64,000 nucleotides of DNA from positions 62,001 through 126,000 of the forward strand of contig CAJWKU010000001.1 of NCBI GenBank assembly GCA_913043005.1, read 5' to 3'. Every line of letters begins with the position of its first letter. The first letter of the stretch is position 1. This DNA comes from an uncultured Cryomorphaceae bacterium (GTDB lineage Bacteria; Bacteroidota; Bacteroidia; Flavobacteriales; Schleiferiaceae). Below the pieces are notes generated by a model. The model was given only the letters and a program-made list of their open reading frames with translations. It was not told the origin of the DNA and ran no database searches. The position numbers were made by a program, and so were the translations under genes. Shown here one piece after another: positions 48,393-55,698 of this stretch.

Positions 48393-48488
48393 AAGATATT
48401 TTTTTCTGAGCGCAAAGTAATGGAAGCATTTCCATAAAATTGTATAAAATCATTCGCTGACATTTTGTCACGTGTGCATTAAAGTACT

Positions 48489-48496
48489 TATTTTTG
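48489..48496 (+). promoter_or_regulatory. -7 box of the miaB promoter
   Basis: TATTTTTG matches TAnnTTTG exactly and ends four bases before the miaB ATG at 48501. A TTTG at 48464-48467 lies 21 bases upstream, close to the usual -33 spacing. The start of transcription would fall on or next to the start codon. Confidence 0.7.
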
Positions 48497-48500
48497 TAAG

Positions 48501-49943
48501 ATGAAGACAACAAAAAGCCAAGGAAAATTACTTGACGAAGTTAGACAAGGTGAGCCATTAATAATTGAAAGTTCGGGCACAGGTAAGAAACTCTATCTAG
48601 AATCATATGGTTGTCAGATGAATTTTTCGGATAGTGAAATCGTGGCTTCCATTTTAGTTAAAGATGGATATGAGACTACTACAAATGTTGAAGAGGCTGA
48701 TCTAGTTCTGCTGAATACATGCTCTATTCGCGACAAGGCGGAACAAACGGTAAGAAAACGTCTGAAAAAATTAAACAGCATCAAAAAAAGATCTCCAGAA
48801 ATGAAAATTGGTGTTCTTGGTTGCATGGCTGAAAGAGTAAGAGAGAAGTTTTTTGAAGAAGAGAAGCTTGTCGATTTGGTTGTTGGGCCTGATGCTTACA
48901 GGGATTTGCCAAATTTACTCGGGGAGCTAGACGATGGTAGAAATGCTGTAAATGTTTTACTATCAAAAGAAGAAACCTATCATAATATTGAGCCAGTAAG
49001 ACTTGGGGGTAACGGAGTTTCCGCTTTTGTATCAATAACTCGTGGTTGTGATAATATGTGCACTTTTTGTGTTGTTCCGTTTACAAGAGGGAGAGAGAGA
49101 AGTCGGGATCCTCAGACTATTGTGGATGAGATCATAAATCTTTCAAAAAATGGTTATCATGAGGTTACTCTTTTAGGTCAGAATGTTGATAGTTATTTGT
49201 GGTACGGTGGAGGATTGAAAAAAGACTTCCGGAAGTCAAGTTCAATGGCTCAAGCTACAGCTTTGAGATTTGCAGATTTGTTAACAATGGTAGCTAAAGC
49301 AGTACCAAAAATGCGAATTAGATTTTCAACTTCTAATCCCCAGGATATGGCTGATGAGGTTTTATATGCTATTGCTGAACACGATAATATCTGCAATTAT
49401 ATTCATCTTCCAGTCCAAAGTGGAAGTAGTCGAATACTTAAAGCGATGAATAGAGGACATAATCGCGAAGAATATATCGACTTAATTAAAAGGATAAAAA
49501 AAATAATTCCAAATTGCGGTATTTCGCATGATATGATAACAGGTTTCCCAGGGGAAACAGAGGAAGATCATGCTGAAACTTTGAGTTTGATGGAGTTAGT
49601 TAAGTATGATTTTGGCTACATGTTTTTTTACTCGGAAAGACCGAACACTTTTGCTGCCAGGAATTTAGACGACGACGTCCCTTTGGAAATAAAAAAACGA
49701 AGACTTTCTGAAATAATCGAATATCAACAAAGGCACAGTAGAGAAAATTTATCAAAATATTTGGGTCAAACTTTTCAAGTCTTAGTAGAGGGAAAATCAA
49801 AAAAATCTGAAGATGATTTATTTGGAAGGACCTCGCAAAATAATGTTGTTGTATTTCCTAAAAAGAATTTTCGTCCAGGAGACTTTGTAGATGTAAAAAT
49901 ACAGAGAGCTACATCTGCAACTTTAATCGGAATAGCCATTTAA
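48501..49943 (+). CDS. miaB: tRNA-2-methylthio-N6-isopentenyladenosine synthase MiaB
   Basis: A 480-residue radical-SAM methylthiotransferase. The N-terminal UPF0004 domain holds GCQMNFSDSE (Cys near 38), LLNTCSIRDKAEQ and LGCMAERV, three cysteines for the second Fe-S cluster. The radical-SAM motif is CDNMCTFC (about 184-191), and a TRAM domain ends the protein. It methylthiolates A37 in tRNAs reading UNN codons. It begins a plus-strand run that continues to groEL. Confidence 0.97.
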   Translation: MKTTKSQGKLLDEVRQGEPLIIESSGTGKKLYLESYGCQMNFSDSEIVASILVKDGYETTTNVEEADLVLLNTCSIRDKAEQTVRKRLKKLNSIKKRSPEMKIGVLGCMAERVREKFFEEEKLVDLVVGPDAYRDLPNLLGELDDGRNAVNVLLSKEETYHNIEPVRLGGNGVSAFVSITRGCDNMCTFCVVPFTRGRERSRDPQTIVDEIINLSKNGYHEVTLLGQNVDSYLWYGGGLKKDFRKSSSMAQATALRFADLLTMVAKAVPKMRIRFSTSNPQDMADEVLYAIAEHDNICNYIHLPVQSGSSRILKAMNRGHNREEYIDLIKRIKKIIPNCGISHDMITGFPGETEEDHAETLSLMELVKYDFGYMFFYSERPNTFAARNLDDDVPLEIKKRRLSEIIEYQQRHSRENLSKYLGQTFQVLVEGKSKKSEDDLFGRTSQNNVVVFPKKNFRPGDFVDVKIQRATSATLIGIAI

Positions 49944-49956
49944 AAAAATAAAAATC

Positions 49957-50355
49957 ATGATTAAGTTTTTCTTTTTGTTATTCTTATTTTTAGGATTGAG
50001 TCTGTTTTCTCAGACAAGACTTCAAGATGGGACATGGGAGGATAAGGAATTATCTTTTAGTATTATCCATGAAGAGATAAAAGAGAATGGGTTTTTAGAA
50101 TTATGTATATCCAAAAATGGAGTTTGTATTGAAAATCTAACTGTTGGATTTACAATCGTAATTTTTGATAAAATGGGTAAAGAAATATTAAATTCGCTGT
50201 GGACAGGAAAAAATATGAATCTATCCTTTAAAAGAGCATATCCCGAGGCCAAAGAGATTTTAATTAAAGCTGGGGCTCCTTTCGTTATTAATAAAATTTC
50301 GGGGACCAGAATTAGAACAGGTCATTCCTTAAAACTGCATAAAACTCTAAAGTGA
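49957..50355 (+). CDS. small secreted protein of unknown function
   Basis: The 132-residue product has a strong signal peptide (MIKFFFLLFLFLGLSLFSQ). The mature part of about 113 residues is beta-rich and contains two Cys (LCISKNGVCIENL) that could form a disulphide in the periplasm. I do not recognise a family. It lies 13 bp after miaB, and its stop shares bases with the start of the sigma-54 activator gene, so it belongs to the same transcript. Confidence 0.7.
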   Translation: MIKFFFLLFLFLGLSLFSQTRLQDGTWEDKELSFSIIHEEIKENGFLELCISKNGVCIENLTVGFTIVIFDKMGKEILNSLWTGKNMNLSFKRAYPEAKEILIKAGAPFVINKISGTRIRTGHSLKLHKTLK

Positions 50356-51584
50356 TGAATATTCAAGAAATCAAGCAGCGTTTCGGCATTATTGGAACTA
50401 ATGAAGTTCTTGATCGAGCAATTTTCAAGGCTATGCAAGTAGCTCCAACTGATATTTCAGTTTTAGTTACCGGAGAAAGTGGGGTTGGTAAAGAAGCTAT
50501 ACCAAAAATAATTCATCACTTATCCCATAGAAAACATTCACCGTTAATTGCGGTTAATTGCGGAGCTATCCCTGAAGGAACTATTGATAGTGAGCTTTTT
50601 GGTCATGAAAAAGGTTCTTTTACAGGTGCAACAGGGGCTAGGAAAGGGTACTTTGAGGAGGCAGATAATGGTACTATTTTTATGGATGAGGTTGGAGAAT
50701 TGCCCTTAGGGACTCAAGTGCGTTTGTTGCGTGTGCTGGAAAATGGAGAAATTATTCGAGTTGGTTCTTCGAAATCACAGAAAATAAATGTTAGAATTGT
50801 AGGAGCCACTAATTCAGATATGTTGCGAGGAATAGAAAAAAATGAATTTCGTGAAGATTTATATTATCGACTAAACACTGTGGAAATAAATCTACCCCCC
50901 TTGCGCGATAGGAAAGGTGATATTCATCTATTGTTTCGAAAGTTTGCTCAGGATTTTGCTCAAAAATATAGAGTTCCTGGAGTACGCTTAAGTCAAGAGG
51001 CTGTGAGAGTTTTAGAGGATTACAGATGGCCTGGGAATATTCGTCAACTTCGAAATCTTGTTGAGCAACTCTGTGTTATTGAAAATGATAAAGAGATTGA
51101 TGCAGAAGTTTTGAGAAATTATATACCTGAAATTGATCGTTCAAATCTTCCGGCAAGGATGGAAAATCCAGTTTCTCAGGGAGAATTTAAGACTGAAAGA
51201 GAGATTCTTTATAAAGTTCTTTTTGATATGCGTAGTGATATTAGTAATCTAAAAAATGCAGTTCAATCTATTTTGAAAGGAGGAAGGCTAAACGAGACTC
51301 AAGAGTCCCCGGAAGGAACGATAATTCATCATAATTCTTCAGCAGAGGCGGATTCACTGCCAACCTCAATAGAAAAGGATAATAAAACAATCGCAAACGA
51401 GGAAACGTTGGATGTTGAATCTGCGGAGGATCCGAATGGAAATTTATCACTTCAAGATTTAGAAGTGGAAATGATAAAAAGAGCAATTGATAAACACCGA
51501 GGTCGCCGGAAAGAGGCTGCAGAAGAATTAGGTATTTCAGAGCGAACATTGTATCGTAAAATCAAACAATATAATCTAGGTTAA
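50355..51584 (+). CDS. sigma-54-dependent transcriptional activator without receiver domain
   Basis: A 409-residue bacterial enhancer-binding protein. The AAA+ domain starts almost at residue 1: Walker A GESGVGKE (40-47), the sigma-54 contact loop GSFTGA (87-92, a form of GAFTGA), Walker B GTIFMDE (106-112) and the arginine-finger region. After a polar linker a Fis-type helix-turn-helix ends the protein (RRKEAAEELGISERTLYRKI). No receiver, PAS or GAF domain precedes the AAA+ part, so its activity must be set by partners or level. A -24/-12-like site lies before groES further down the same gene block. Confidence 0.92.
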   Translation: MNIQEIKQRFGIIGTNEVLDRAIFKAMQVAPTDISVLVTGESGVGKEAIPKIIHHLSHRKHSPLIAVNCGAIPEGTIDSELFGHEKGSFTGATGARKGYFEEADNGTIFMDEVGELPLGTQVRLLRVLENGEIIRVGSSKSQKINVRIVGATNSDMLRGIEKNEFREDLYYRLNTVEINLPPLRDRKGDIHLLFRKFAQDFAQKYRVPGVRLSQEAVRVLEDYRWPGNIRQLRNLVEQLCVIENDKEIDAEVLRNYIPEIDRSNLPARMENPVSQGEFKTEREILYKVLFDMRSDISNLKNAVQSILKGGRLNETQESPEGTIIHHNSSAEADSLPTSIEKDNKTIANEETLDVESAEDPNGNLSLQDLEVEMIKRAIDKHRGRRKEAAEELGISERTLYRKIKQYNLG

Positions 51585-52084
51585 TGATGTTAAGGTCAGC
51601 TCCAATATTGCTTTTGATATTTATTTTACAATCCTGTTCAGGTGGCTATTCTTTTACTGGTGGAGATGTAGGTGCTGCAAAAACTGTCAGTATTGATAGA
51701 TTTAATAATATTGCCCCTTTGGTGAATCCGAAACTATCACAACAGTTTACAGAATCATTACAAGAATTATTGGTTAGGCAAACTCCTTTGGCACTTACTA
51801 AAGTTAATGGCGACTTGAACTTTAGTGGTGAAATAGTTGGCTATGAAGTAAAGTCAGAAGCTCCTGGGGCGAATGACCAGATTGCGCAAAGTAGACTATC
51901 CATAACAGTAAAGGTCAGATTTAAAAATTTCCTGGATGTAGAAAAAGATTTTGAGCAAATTTTTTCGAGTTACAGAAATTTTCCTGCCAGTAGTGACTTA
52001 AGTTCTGTAGAGGATGTTCTTGTTGATGAAATAATCCAAGAAATGGTAGAAAAGATTTTTAATAGATCATTAGTCAATTGGTAA
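51584..52084 (+). CDS. LptE-like LPS-assembly lipoprotein
   Basis: A 166-residue protein with a short signal peptide and lipobox ILQSC followed by SGGYSFTGG. The small alpha/beta body with TVSIDRFNN, a C-terminal helix and RSRLSITVKV-like strands fits the LptE family, the plug in the LptD outer-membrane channel for lipopolysaccharide. Its start overlaps the activator's stop and its stop overlaps the next gene, so translation is coupled. Family call rests on size, lipobox and neighbourhood. Confidence 0.75.
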   Translation: MMLRSAPILLLIFILQSCSGGYSFTGGDVGAAKTVSIDRFNNIAPLVNPKLSQQFTESLQELLVRQTPLALTKVNGDLNFSGEIVGYEVKSEAPGANDQIAQSRLSITVKVRFKNFLDVEKDFEQIFSSYRNFPASSDLSSVEDVLVDEIIQEMVEKIFNRSLVNW

Positions 52085-53235
52085 TGGGGGAGCAAAAAAA
52101 TCATGTTAATTCACTACTCAAAAGGAAAGTTAGATTCGGAAAAGAATCCACGTCGAACTTAGGGCGATTAGTAGATCAATATCCTTATGCACCTATTTTT
52201 CATTTTTTATATTTACGGAGTTTACAAGAGGAAGACTCTTATAAATTCCCATCCCAATTAAATCGATCATCAGTTTCAACAATGAACCGTTCTGCTCTTT
52301 TTGACTGGGCTGAAGAACCATTGGTTCCAATTGAGGTCCAGATGGCAGCTGTCGAAAAGAGATTATCAGATCGAACCAAAAATCAGTCAGAAATAGAAAG
52401 TAAAAATGAGGTCCCAATTTCTGAAGAAGATTCAGATAAAAAGCATAATTCAGGCGATAAAGAATTTAAAAAAAATATTAAATCATCGACTTATAAAACA
52501 GAAACTGCGCAGGTAAAGAAGATATCCATGGAGTCGTTAGACTTATCTAATTTACCTGATAAAGTAAAGATTCAAATTTTAAGAAGTAGAGCTATTAAAG
52601 AACAGTTCAGCCGAAACAGGAACAGTAATGAAAAACCAAATGCAGCAAAGGATTTAGATCTAAAAGAAAATAAAACTGTTAAAAAGGGGAAAACAATAGT
52701 TCCCAAGGAGAATTTAGAAAAAAGAGATCTTTCGATATCAATAAAGAAAAAAACTCCGTTTAAGAGTAATAAAAAATCTGCGCAGATTAGCACTAATAAT
52801 TCTGATGAAGATTCAAATTTTGAATATAAAAATAGAAAACCTAAATTTTTTTTAAACTCCCCTGAGCTTTCAGAATCCAAGGATCTTTCTCCTTTCGCTC
52901 AATTTTTGCATGGATTGAAGAATGATGCCCCAAAAATTGTCAATGAATCCTCAAGAGACAGGTCAACTGAAAGAAAAATATTGCAGCAGTTTTTAGAATT
53001 AAATCCAAAAATATCTCCAGTTAGAGGTGATGAAAACATACTGGATTTAACTTTAAAAACCCCAAATGTAAGTGGTTTAGTTACAGAGACTTTAGCAAAT
53101 CACTATTATGATCAAGGAGCTTTTGTGAAGGCAATTCAGGCATATGAAATATTGAAATTGAAAGTTCCGCAGAAAAGTGGCATCTTTGCGGCCCGTATTT
53201 CTGAAATGCGTAACCTTCAATTTGACAAAAAATGA
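52084..53235 (+). CDS. TPR-like protein with long charged linker
   Basis: A 383-residue cytoplasmic protein without signal peptide. The first 75 residues are helical (SLLKRKVRFGKES, PYAPIFHFLYLRSL) and the last 60 contain one clear tetratricopeptide-type repeat (ALANHYYDQGAFVKAIQAYEIL spans about 340-361, partly quoted). Between them lies about 230 residues of charged, Lys/Glu/Ser-rich, likely disordered sequence. I do not know its function. ATG 52084 overlaps the lptE-like stop; a TTG at 52078 is less likely. Its stop overlaps secG by 4 bp. Confidence 0.75.
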   Translation: MGEQKNHVNSLLKRKVRFGKESTSNLGRLVDQYPYAPIFHFLYLRSLQEEDSYKFPSQLNRSSVSTMNRSALFDWAEEPLVPIEVQMAAVEKRLSDRTKNQSEIESKNEVPISEEDSDKKHNSGDKEFKKNIKSSTYKTETAQVKKISMESLDLSNLPDKVKIQILRSRAIKEQFSRNRNSNEKPNAAKDLDLKENKTVKKGKTIVPKENLEKRDLSISIKKKTPFKSNKKSAQISTNNSDEDSNFEYKNRKPKFFLNSPELSESKDLSPFAQFLHGLKNDAPKIVNESSRDRSTERKILQQFLELNPKISPVRGDENILDLTLKTPNVSGLVTETLANHYYDQGAFVKAIQAYEILKLKVPQKSGIFAARISEMRNLQFDKK

Positions 53236-53603
53236 CCACTTTGTTTATGTTGCTAATCATTGCGATTAGTGTTCTCTTAATGTTAGTTGTATTAGTGCAA
53301 AACCCGAAAGGGGGAGGGCTTAGTTCTGCTTTTGGCGGTGACTCGGGAAACATGCTTGGTGGAGTGAGACGAACCAATGATTTTTTAGAAAAATCTACAT
53401 GGACCCTAGCTCTTGCTTTACTAGTCTTGGTTCTTTTAGTAAATATTACTAATCCAAGTTCTGAAATTCAATCAAGCCCAGAGTCTCAAATAGATGAGGA
53501 AATTGATAATGCTGCTCCAACATTTCAATCCCCTATGGCACCAACATCGCAGCCTGCAATTTCTCAACCTTCTGATATAGATTTGCCCGAAAGCGCTGAA
53601 TGA
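53232..53603 (+). CDS. secG: preprotein translocase subunit SecG
   Basis: A 123-residue protein with two membrane helices (about 1-20 and 55-74) joined by the loop QNPKGGGLSSAFGGDSGNMLGG in part, the SecG signature. A polar C-terminal tail rich in Pro, Ser and Gln follows, longer than in E. coli. SecG assists SecYE in protein export. It overlaps the preceding gene by 4 bp and is followed by the 143-bp region before groES. Confidence 0.95.
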   Translation: MTTLFMLLIIAISVLLMLVVLVQNPKGGGLSSAFGGDSGNMLGGVRRTNDFLEKSTWTLALALLVLVLLVNITNPSSEIQSSPESQIDEEIDNAAPTFQSPMAPTSQPAISQPSDIDLPESAE

Positions 53604-53614
53604 AACTGAATTTT

Positions 53615-53643
53615 TGTCAGTTTGTTAATGTCAAGCTGACATT
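53615..53643 (+). promoter_or_regulatory. TGTCA repeat cluster and palindrome upstream of groES
   Basis: TGTCA occurs at 53615-53619 and 53629-53633, and its complement TGACA at 53637-53641. The last two form the perfect inverted repeat AATGTCA-N3-TGACATT (53627-53643). It lies 21 bp before the sigma-54-like element. It is not a CIRCE element, so HrcA is not the obvious binder. It could be an activator or repressor site. Confidence 0.55.
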
Positions 53644-53663
53644 AGAAACACCGATTGTGCGGA

Positions 53664-53680
53664 TTGGCATGAGTTGTGCA
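53664..53680 (+). promoter_or_regulatory. candidate sigma-54 promoter of groES-groEL
   Basis: The site reads TTGGCATGAGTTGTGCA. GG at 53666-53667 and GC at 53678-53679 are exactly 12 bp apart, the invariant -24/-12 layout, and the rest differs from YTGGCACG-N4-TTGCW at two positions. The start of transcription would be near 53691, some 56 bp before the groES ATG. No exact TAnnTTTG box was found in this region. Confidence 0.6.
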
Positions 53681-53746
53681 TAAACTTTAAAATCTTTATA
53701 ACCGGTCAATAAACTTAAAAAAAATTCAAAAATTAAAAATATCAAT

Positions 53747-54025
53747 ATGGCAAATTTGAATATAACTCCTCTCGCTGATAGAGTAATTGTTTCTCCCTCA
53801 GCTGCTGAGACGAAAACGGCTTCCGGTATAATTATTCCGGACACAGCTCAAGAAAAGCCCCAAAAGGGAAATATTGTAGCTGTAGGTAACGGTAAAAAAG
53901 ATGAGCCAATGACTGTGAAAGTAGGTGATGAAGTTTTGTATGGTAAATATTCCGGTACAGAATTTAGTTTTGAAGGAGAAGAGTACTTAATAATGAGAGA
54001 ATCTGATATTCTTGCCATTCTTTAA
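53747..54025 (+). CDS. groS: co-chaperonin GroES
   Basis: A 92-residue GroES with all landmarks: [10 protein letters not shown] at the start, the mobile loop around [17 protein letters not shown], which contacts GroEL, and [15 protein letters not shown]. It caps the GroEL ring for protein folding. It is 32 bp upstream of groEL and preceded by the TGTCA palindrome and the sigma-54-like site. Confidence 0.98.
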
Positions 54026-54036
54026 GAAATATTTAA

Positions 54037-55698
<1,662 letters not shown>

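Follow-up and report, generated by a model that had tools for sequence, protein, structure and literature searches.

Sigma-54 promoters have been described for chaperone genes of several bacteria. In Flavobacterium psychrophilum, sigma-54 (SM4) transcription starts are listed for groES-groEL, lon, dnaK, grpE-dnaJ, htpG, skp and clpB, while a gene pair encoding an enhancer-binding protein (EBP) and LptE has a separate SM5 start (PMC9723704). A class-wide prediction found sigma-54 promoters of GroES/GroEL, GrpE and DnaK enriched in Flavobacteriia, Bacteroidia and Cytophagia, and gives GrpE of B. thetaiotaomicron and F. psychrophilum, and GroES of B. thetaiotaomicron, as sigma-54-dependent; according to it, EBP specificity is not known for every organism covered, and the terms UAS and upstream activat- are absent from its main text (PMC12316311). 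The groESL genes of Bradyrhizobium are under the control of NifA and sigma-54 (PMC7511792, citing Fischer 1993). EBPs of group 4, such as PspF, are controlled by proteins in trans (PMC7175178). Sigma-54 control of groESL is not new, having already been reported for the phylum; the activator assignment and the docking sites described below look new, the promoter type being known. A literature search that took in few subscription papers and no supplements returned no activator assignment, TGTCA-N3-TGACA site, phasing or miaB dyad of the kind reported here.

The 64-kb stretch of DNA analysed here (the window) comes from a genome that is 92.88% complete, so that a further EBP could be missing from it. 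The window carries an EBP gene within a run that begins with a miaB-type gene, which we take to be miaB, and continues through lptE and secG to groES and groEL (Table 1). Between lptE and secG (52084-53232) lies a gene for a charged 383-aa protein that has no Pfam or NCBIfam match and is often recognisable in relatives by its C-terminal part only. Among 57 fetched EBP loci, groES lies within the same stretch as the EBP in 41, and some of the remaining 16 stop at contig ends. The usual order is EBP-lptE-(TPR)-secG-groES-groEL, with additional genes in some loci. Locus L294, from a named Flavobacterium sp., has DNA identical to that of G053, which puts the window's order with that of Flavobacterium. 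In the 345-kb genome G051 the EBP is followed by a 76-aa secG-like ORF, groES and groEL, and lptE was not found in this locus (L088).

Table 1. Coding and regulatory features of the gene run in window coordinates
Feature	Position	Strand	Basis or remark
TGACA-N3-TGTCA dyad before miaB, proposed operator	48458..48470	.	conserved dyad
TAnnTTTG, -7 box of Bacteroidota sigma-A-type promoter	48489..48496	+	consensus of PMC9723704
miaB-type gene, first of the EBP gene run	48501..49943	+	Pfam UPF0004, Radical_SAM, TRAM
EBP, proposed activator	50355..51584	+	PF00158, AAA lid, HTH_8
lptE	51587..52084	+	PF04390
secG	53232..53603	+	PF03840
Third half-site TGTCA	53615..53619	+	50 nt before T of TGGCA
Dyad TAATGTCA-AGC-TGACATTA (TGTCA-N3-TGACA), proposed EBP binding site	53626..53644	.	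perfect dyad
Sigma-54 -24/-12 promoter of groES-groEL, TGGCATGAGTTGTGCA	53665..53680	+	consensus match and conservation
groES	53747..54025	+	PF00166
groEL	54058..55698	+	PF00118

Like the window's group, F. psychrophilum has -24/-12 elements at groES-groEL, lon, dnaK and grpE-dnaJ, and its EBP-lptE pair likewise lies close to groES, a few locus tags away; the available part of that account counts three PF00158 proteins and contains no activator assignment and no TGTCA site or spacing rule (PMC9723704). The class-wide prediction shares the groES, grpE and dnaK promoters with the present set and differs in its incomplete EBP specificity (PMC12316311). Bradyrhizobium groESL also combines sigma-54 with an EBP but belongs with NifA and the genes for nitrogen fixation rather than with a general chaperone regulon (PMC7511792).

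The promoter of groES has GG at 53666-53667 and GC at 53678-53679, 12 bp apart in a TGGCAC/TTGC-type context, and matches the sigma-54 consensus at 10 of 12 positions, in agreement with an earlier reading of this DNA made without database searches (the sequence-only reading). Transcription of groES is predicted to start at about 53690-53692. When the 130 nt before groES were dinucleotide-shuffled 5000 times, 25 shuffles equalled or bettered the promoter score. The motif TGGCAYGNNNNNTGCA, allowing at most one mismatch, occurs twice in the window (1.17 expected), a count reached by 32 of 100 shuffles, and its sole exact match in the 64 kb is the one before groES; as the motif alone is not rare over this length, it is conservation that makes the promoter convincing. 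The source genome has one copy of rpoN, and sigma-54 requires an EBP. Two other modes of groESL control were considered and rejected: HrcA/CIRCE, whose exact inverted-repeat core GCACTC-N9-GAGTGC occurs in none of 385 sequences (the window and the fetched loci), and a housekeeping promoter, the pattern TTG-N17-23-TAnnTTTG being present in none of 42 groES upstream stretches.

Conservation was assessed across 58 genomes of the order, which together gave 59 groES upstream regions (the window, 41 EBP-linked loci and 17 others), with G058 entering twice (L087, L138); L142, with masked N, was left out of the groES set, and L175, whose start was not parsed, out of the grpE set. On a scale with a maximum of 14.5, 56 groES regions score at least 11, 52 at least 12.5 and 41 at least 13.5, cut-offs reached by 6.8%, 1.6% and 0.5% of shuffles. 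The corresponding counts are 28, 23 and 19 of 29 regions for grpE and 29, 29 and 20 of 29 for dnaK; at 12.5 or above, shuffles account for 1.2-1.6% across groES, grpE and dnaK. For lon, scored without a shuffle control, 23 of 24 parsed regions reach at least 12.5 (5 of 29 loci lack a parsed start and were left out), and in the source genome the lon site falls within the upstream ORF. The promoter's retention in 56 of 59 regions supports the sigma-54 control of groESL proposed by the sequence-only reading, which had itself suggested a search for the site upstream of groES in genomes with the activator-lptE-secG-groESL order. Scores below 11 were found for groES of G026 and G058 and for grpE of G051; G058 has rpoN and a window-type EBP, yet its groES lacks the promoter. 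In many other families, the -12 GC is replaced by GA, GT or similar.

A broad scan with TGGCAYNNNNNNTGM was rejected as a definition of the regulon: it returned 45 matches in the source genome, against 8 with the reversed pattern, and 36 of these matches fall within ORFs of at least 90 aa. Outside ORFs, the source genome has sigma-54-like sites at L104, L109, L118 and L121, none with a TGTCA half-site within about 85 nt, and the first residues of the proteins that follow suggest secretion or a membrane location. Possibly, these sites are targets of the second EBP described below.

The TGTCA half-sites and perfect palindrome earlier noticed upstream of groES were located at 53615, 53629 and 53637; the two that form the dyad, TGTCA at 53629 and TGACA at 53637, lie 36 and 28 nt before the T of TGGCA. 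No other place in the 64 kb has three half-sites inside 60 bp. The pair TGWCA-N3-TGWCA occurs twice in the window against 0.21 expected, with 0 of 100 shuffles reaching two, and at five places in the source genome: upstream of groES, upstream of miaB, and three inside genes. With only five places, the pair pattern misses other spacings, such as those at grpE and dnaK. Within 200 nt, TGWCA occurs 135 times before groES (59 regions; 24.1 in shuffled sequence), 48 times before grpE (29 regions; 10.7) and 91 times before dnaK (29 regions; 15.2), with a background per 200 bp of 0.32 for the window and 0.32-0.41 for the fetched loci. At a distance of 9-70 nt before the T of TGGCA, half-sites are present in 53 of 56 groES, 27 of 28 grpE and 27 of 29 dnaK regions; for lon, 13 of 24 parsed regions have them at 9-100 nt. 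The groES promoters of G046, G054 and G031 have no half-site at 9-70 nt; in G051, the -24 box of grpE is degenerate although TGTCA-N3-TGACA is present, and dnaK lacks a near half-site. Between half-sites, a spacing of 8 is commonest (25 pairs), with other peaks at 11, 20-22 and 45. NorR sites follow GT-N7-AC, which TGTCA-N3-TGACA also fits; the NorR regulator and its targets differ.

Measured from the -24 box, half-sites cluster at about 17, 25-28, 36-38, 47-49, 57-60, 67-68 and 80-81, with a best period of 10.6-10.7 bp. This analysis omits regions scoring below 11 (L059, L087, L138, L173), and the distances for L044 are noise because its best-scoring site lies within its terminator. Rayleigh values are 62.6 for TGACA (null maximum 18.1) and 33.3 for TGTCA (null maximum 13.4); when each genus contributes a single region per gene, they are 29.9 and 23.3 against 10.3 and 9.6. 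At a fixed phase, the score is 35.0 for 59 half-sites in 26 groES regions of named genomes, against a null maximum of 21.1, L335 being omitted from the named test. Removal of L294 (Flavobacterium sp.), which duplicates G053 DNA, leaves 57 half-sites in 25 regions, scoring 33.0 against a region-shift null maximum of 28.2 (0 of 20,000 region-shift draws reach 33.0). The 20 lon half-sites score 13.1 at the fixed phase against a null maximum of 12.5, a result whose P-value is the floor of 20,000 draws and assumes independent sites, five of the eight lon TGTCA positions coming from one genus. Within the window's genus, the positions 28/36/50 shift by roughly a helical turn, to 28/49, 38/60, 36/58 and 47/67-68, and the 17-nt position recurs in named loci, e.g. 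of Gillisia, Lacinutrix, Tenacibaculum, Flavobacterium and Dyadobacter. At a classical distant enhancer, activator sites lie about 80-150 bp before the start and their distance is flexible. The half-sites here recur in phase from 17 nt upstream of the -24 box onwards, in a count that covers about 100 nt above the box, and others may lie farther out.

The EBP at 50355 consists of an AAA+ domain (PF00158, residues 12-178), an AAA lid and a Fis-type HTH (HTH_8, 366-406). No N-terminal sensor domain was detected, in agreement with the sequence-only reading; the AAA+ domain starts at residue 12. The AAA+ domain has a Walker motif and a GAFTGA-type loop, which reads GSFTGA in the window protein and GAFTGA in several orthologues, and HTH residues 391-402 are invariant among 14 orthologues. 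An AlphaFold2 model (mean pLDDT 82.2) resolves the AAA+ domain, lid and HTH, together with a lone, conserved helix (281-308) between low-confidence linkers (264-278 and 310-364). The absence of an N-terminal regulatory domain and the AAA+ and HTH composition are shared with PspF and group 4 (PMC7175178), whereas the lone helix and linkers before the HTH, the chaperone targets and the phased sites near the promoter set the window EBP apart from PspF.

This EBP is present in 60 of 60 genomes, the source genome included, at E <= 1e-60. It is orthologous to the single EBP of 6 of 17 scanned genomes, all six of which have rpoN and one of which is G051; five of the six have the groES promoter, and among their fetched regions half-sites lie at 9-70 nt in 4/5 for groES, 2/2 for scored grpE and 2/3 for dnaK. 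The source genome has six PF00158 matches, two of them strong (E below 1e-65) and four weaker (E 4e-8 to 9e-4). The second strong match has a receiver and an AAA+ domain, and Pfam shows no HTH; of 12 loci read for this type, 6 were parsed, and all 6 proteins end just after the AAA lid. This receiver-AAA+ architecture (L002, which is G000 C5; L187-L190, L198, L200) is group 5-like, and the source-genome protein fits that group, which includes FlgR and CtcC (PMC7175178). The local EBP, named as a possible activator by the sequence-only reading, stands as the sole HTH-bearing strong match in the source genome, and conservation, the single-EBP genomes and the phased half-sites point the same way; TGTCA is probably recognised by this protein. 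EBP homologues of 35-45% identity occur in Balneolales, KSB1, Gracilimonas and Gemmatimonadota (L350-L352, L355-L359), in stretches where groES was not found.

The sequence-only reading had suggested that groESL may be switched in one unit with LptE and SecG, as an envelope/protein-export stress response. A single activator-lptE-secG-groESL transcription unit is rejected, given the groES promoter itself, terminators in relatives and the separate starts in F. psychrophilum. A hairpin-plus-T terminator apart from the promoter is found in 19 of 42 groES upstream stretches (the window and 41 EBP-linked loci; 21 before overlap was checked, L083 and L089 overlapping the promoter). No terminator was found after secG in the window itself, so read-through from secG into groES is possible there. 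The envelope interpretation proved too narrow, since dnaK, grpE and lon are preceded by these elements as well, and the targets are general chaperones and Lon, not envelope-specific. Several secG-groES terminator loops carry TGTCA/TGACA (L042, L043, L046, L050, L053, L054, L061, L062, L066, L071, L074 and others), and in those intergenic regions the terminator and the proposed activator site overlap.

The dyad before miaB starts 43 bp before the gene, and the -7 box at 48489 begins 31 nt after the dyad start. Among 21 stretches (the window and 20 others), the dyad is exact in 10, has its last base changed (TGTCG) in 7 and is absent from 4. A TAnnTTTG-type box lies 29-34 nt after the dyad start in 15 of the 17 dyad-bearing stretches, and the dyad therefore overlies the place where the -33 region of a sigma-A-type promoter is expected. 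Conservation of a dyad at the promoter region of the EBP gene run suggests autoregulation, which would take the form of repression. Also just before miaB and close to the -7 box, an inverted repeat, CGGAC-GTA-GTCCG, is conserved among genus members L369-L378 and L381; it is absent from the window and L365-L368.

From the sequence elements, conservation, phasing and gene content observed here, we infer EBP binding to TGTCA, activation, its signal and autoregulation as follows. The EBP at 50355 would bind TGTCA-N3-TGACA dyads that lie near the -24 box and keep to one face of the helix, and would open the sigma-54 promoter with its AAA+ ring. The same protein would drive a regulon of at least groESL, grpE and dnaK, and probably lon. 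As the EBP has no sensor domain, it is probably controlled like PspF-type (group 4) EBPs, by a partner protein acting in trans, for which the lone conserved helix 281-308 may be the contact. The EBP may also autoregulate its own gene run via the miaB dyad. We regard this model as a whole, a sigma-54 groESL promoter driven by the site-bound EBP with a shared proteostasis regulon and autoregulation, as probable.

Activation from solution by the HTH-less second EBP, with TGTCA bound by another protein, is unlikely. That EBP is the other strong match in the source genome, and 10 of 30 genomes have a second EBP match no more than about 8 kb from grpE (its type checked for G042, L190, alone); however, the six genomes without it keep rpoN and, in the regions examined, mostly half-site-bearing promoters, and helical phasing relative to the -24 box is consistent with an activator bound at these sites. 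The terminator loops of several relatives, with a half-site upstream of groES, could instead indicate that TGTCA marks repressor or nucleoid-protein sites, or by-products of terminator hairpins after secG. We give this reading little credence, since the same half-sites recur with the same phasing before grpE, dnaK and groES copies away from secG. Least plausible, and in our judgement very improbable, is a fortuitous -24/-12 match with groES read from a housekeeping promoter or from upstream: a generic -35/-10-like match does overlap the -24/-12 site and the window has no terminator after secG, but one such match equals the shuffle mean (1.0), the housekeeping pattern is missing from all 42 stretches while the sigma-54 promoter is widely kept, and the F. 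psychrophilum groES start is listed as sigma-54 (PMC9723704).

In the literature searched, chaperone control in Bacteroidota had no named activator; the evidence now points to a gene, a site and a spacing rule, and in a large bacterial group heat-shock genes appear to be under this switch. That reduced flavobacterial insect symbionts retain RpoN has been considered unusual and linked to nitrogen (PMC3971599). The genome G051, from its size of 345 kb presumably that of a symbiont, keeps rpoN and one EBP, and a chaperone role is another possible reason for such retention. A bolder proposal, to which we give an even chance, is that the sensor-less EBP is the phylum's master heat-shock activator, acting from dyads at about 17 + n x 10.6 bp from the -24 box, closer in manner to a promoter-proximal activator than to a looping enhancer protein, and repressing its own gene run via the same dyad. 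If so, it would be the transcription of chaperone genes, and not nitrogen control, for which flavobacterial symbionts with highly reduced genomes keep rpoN.
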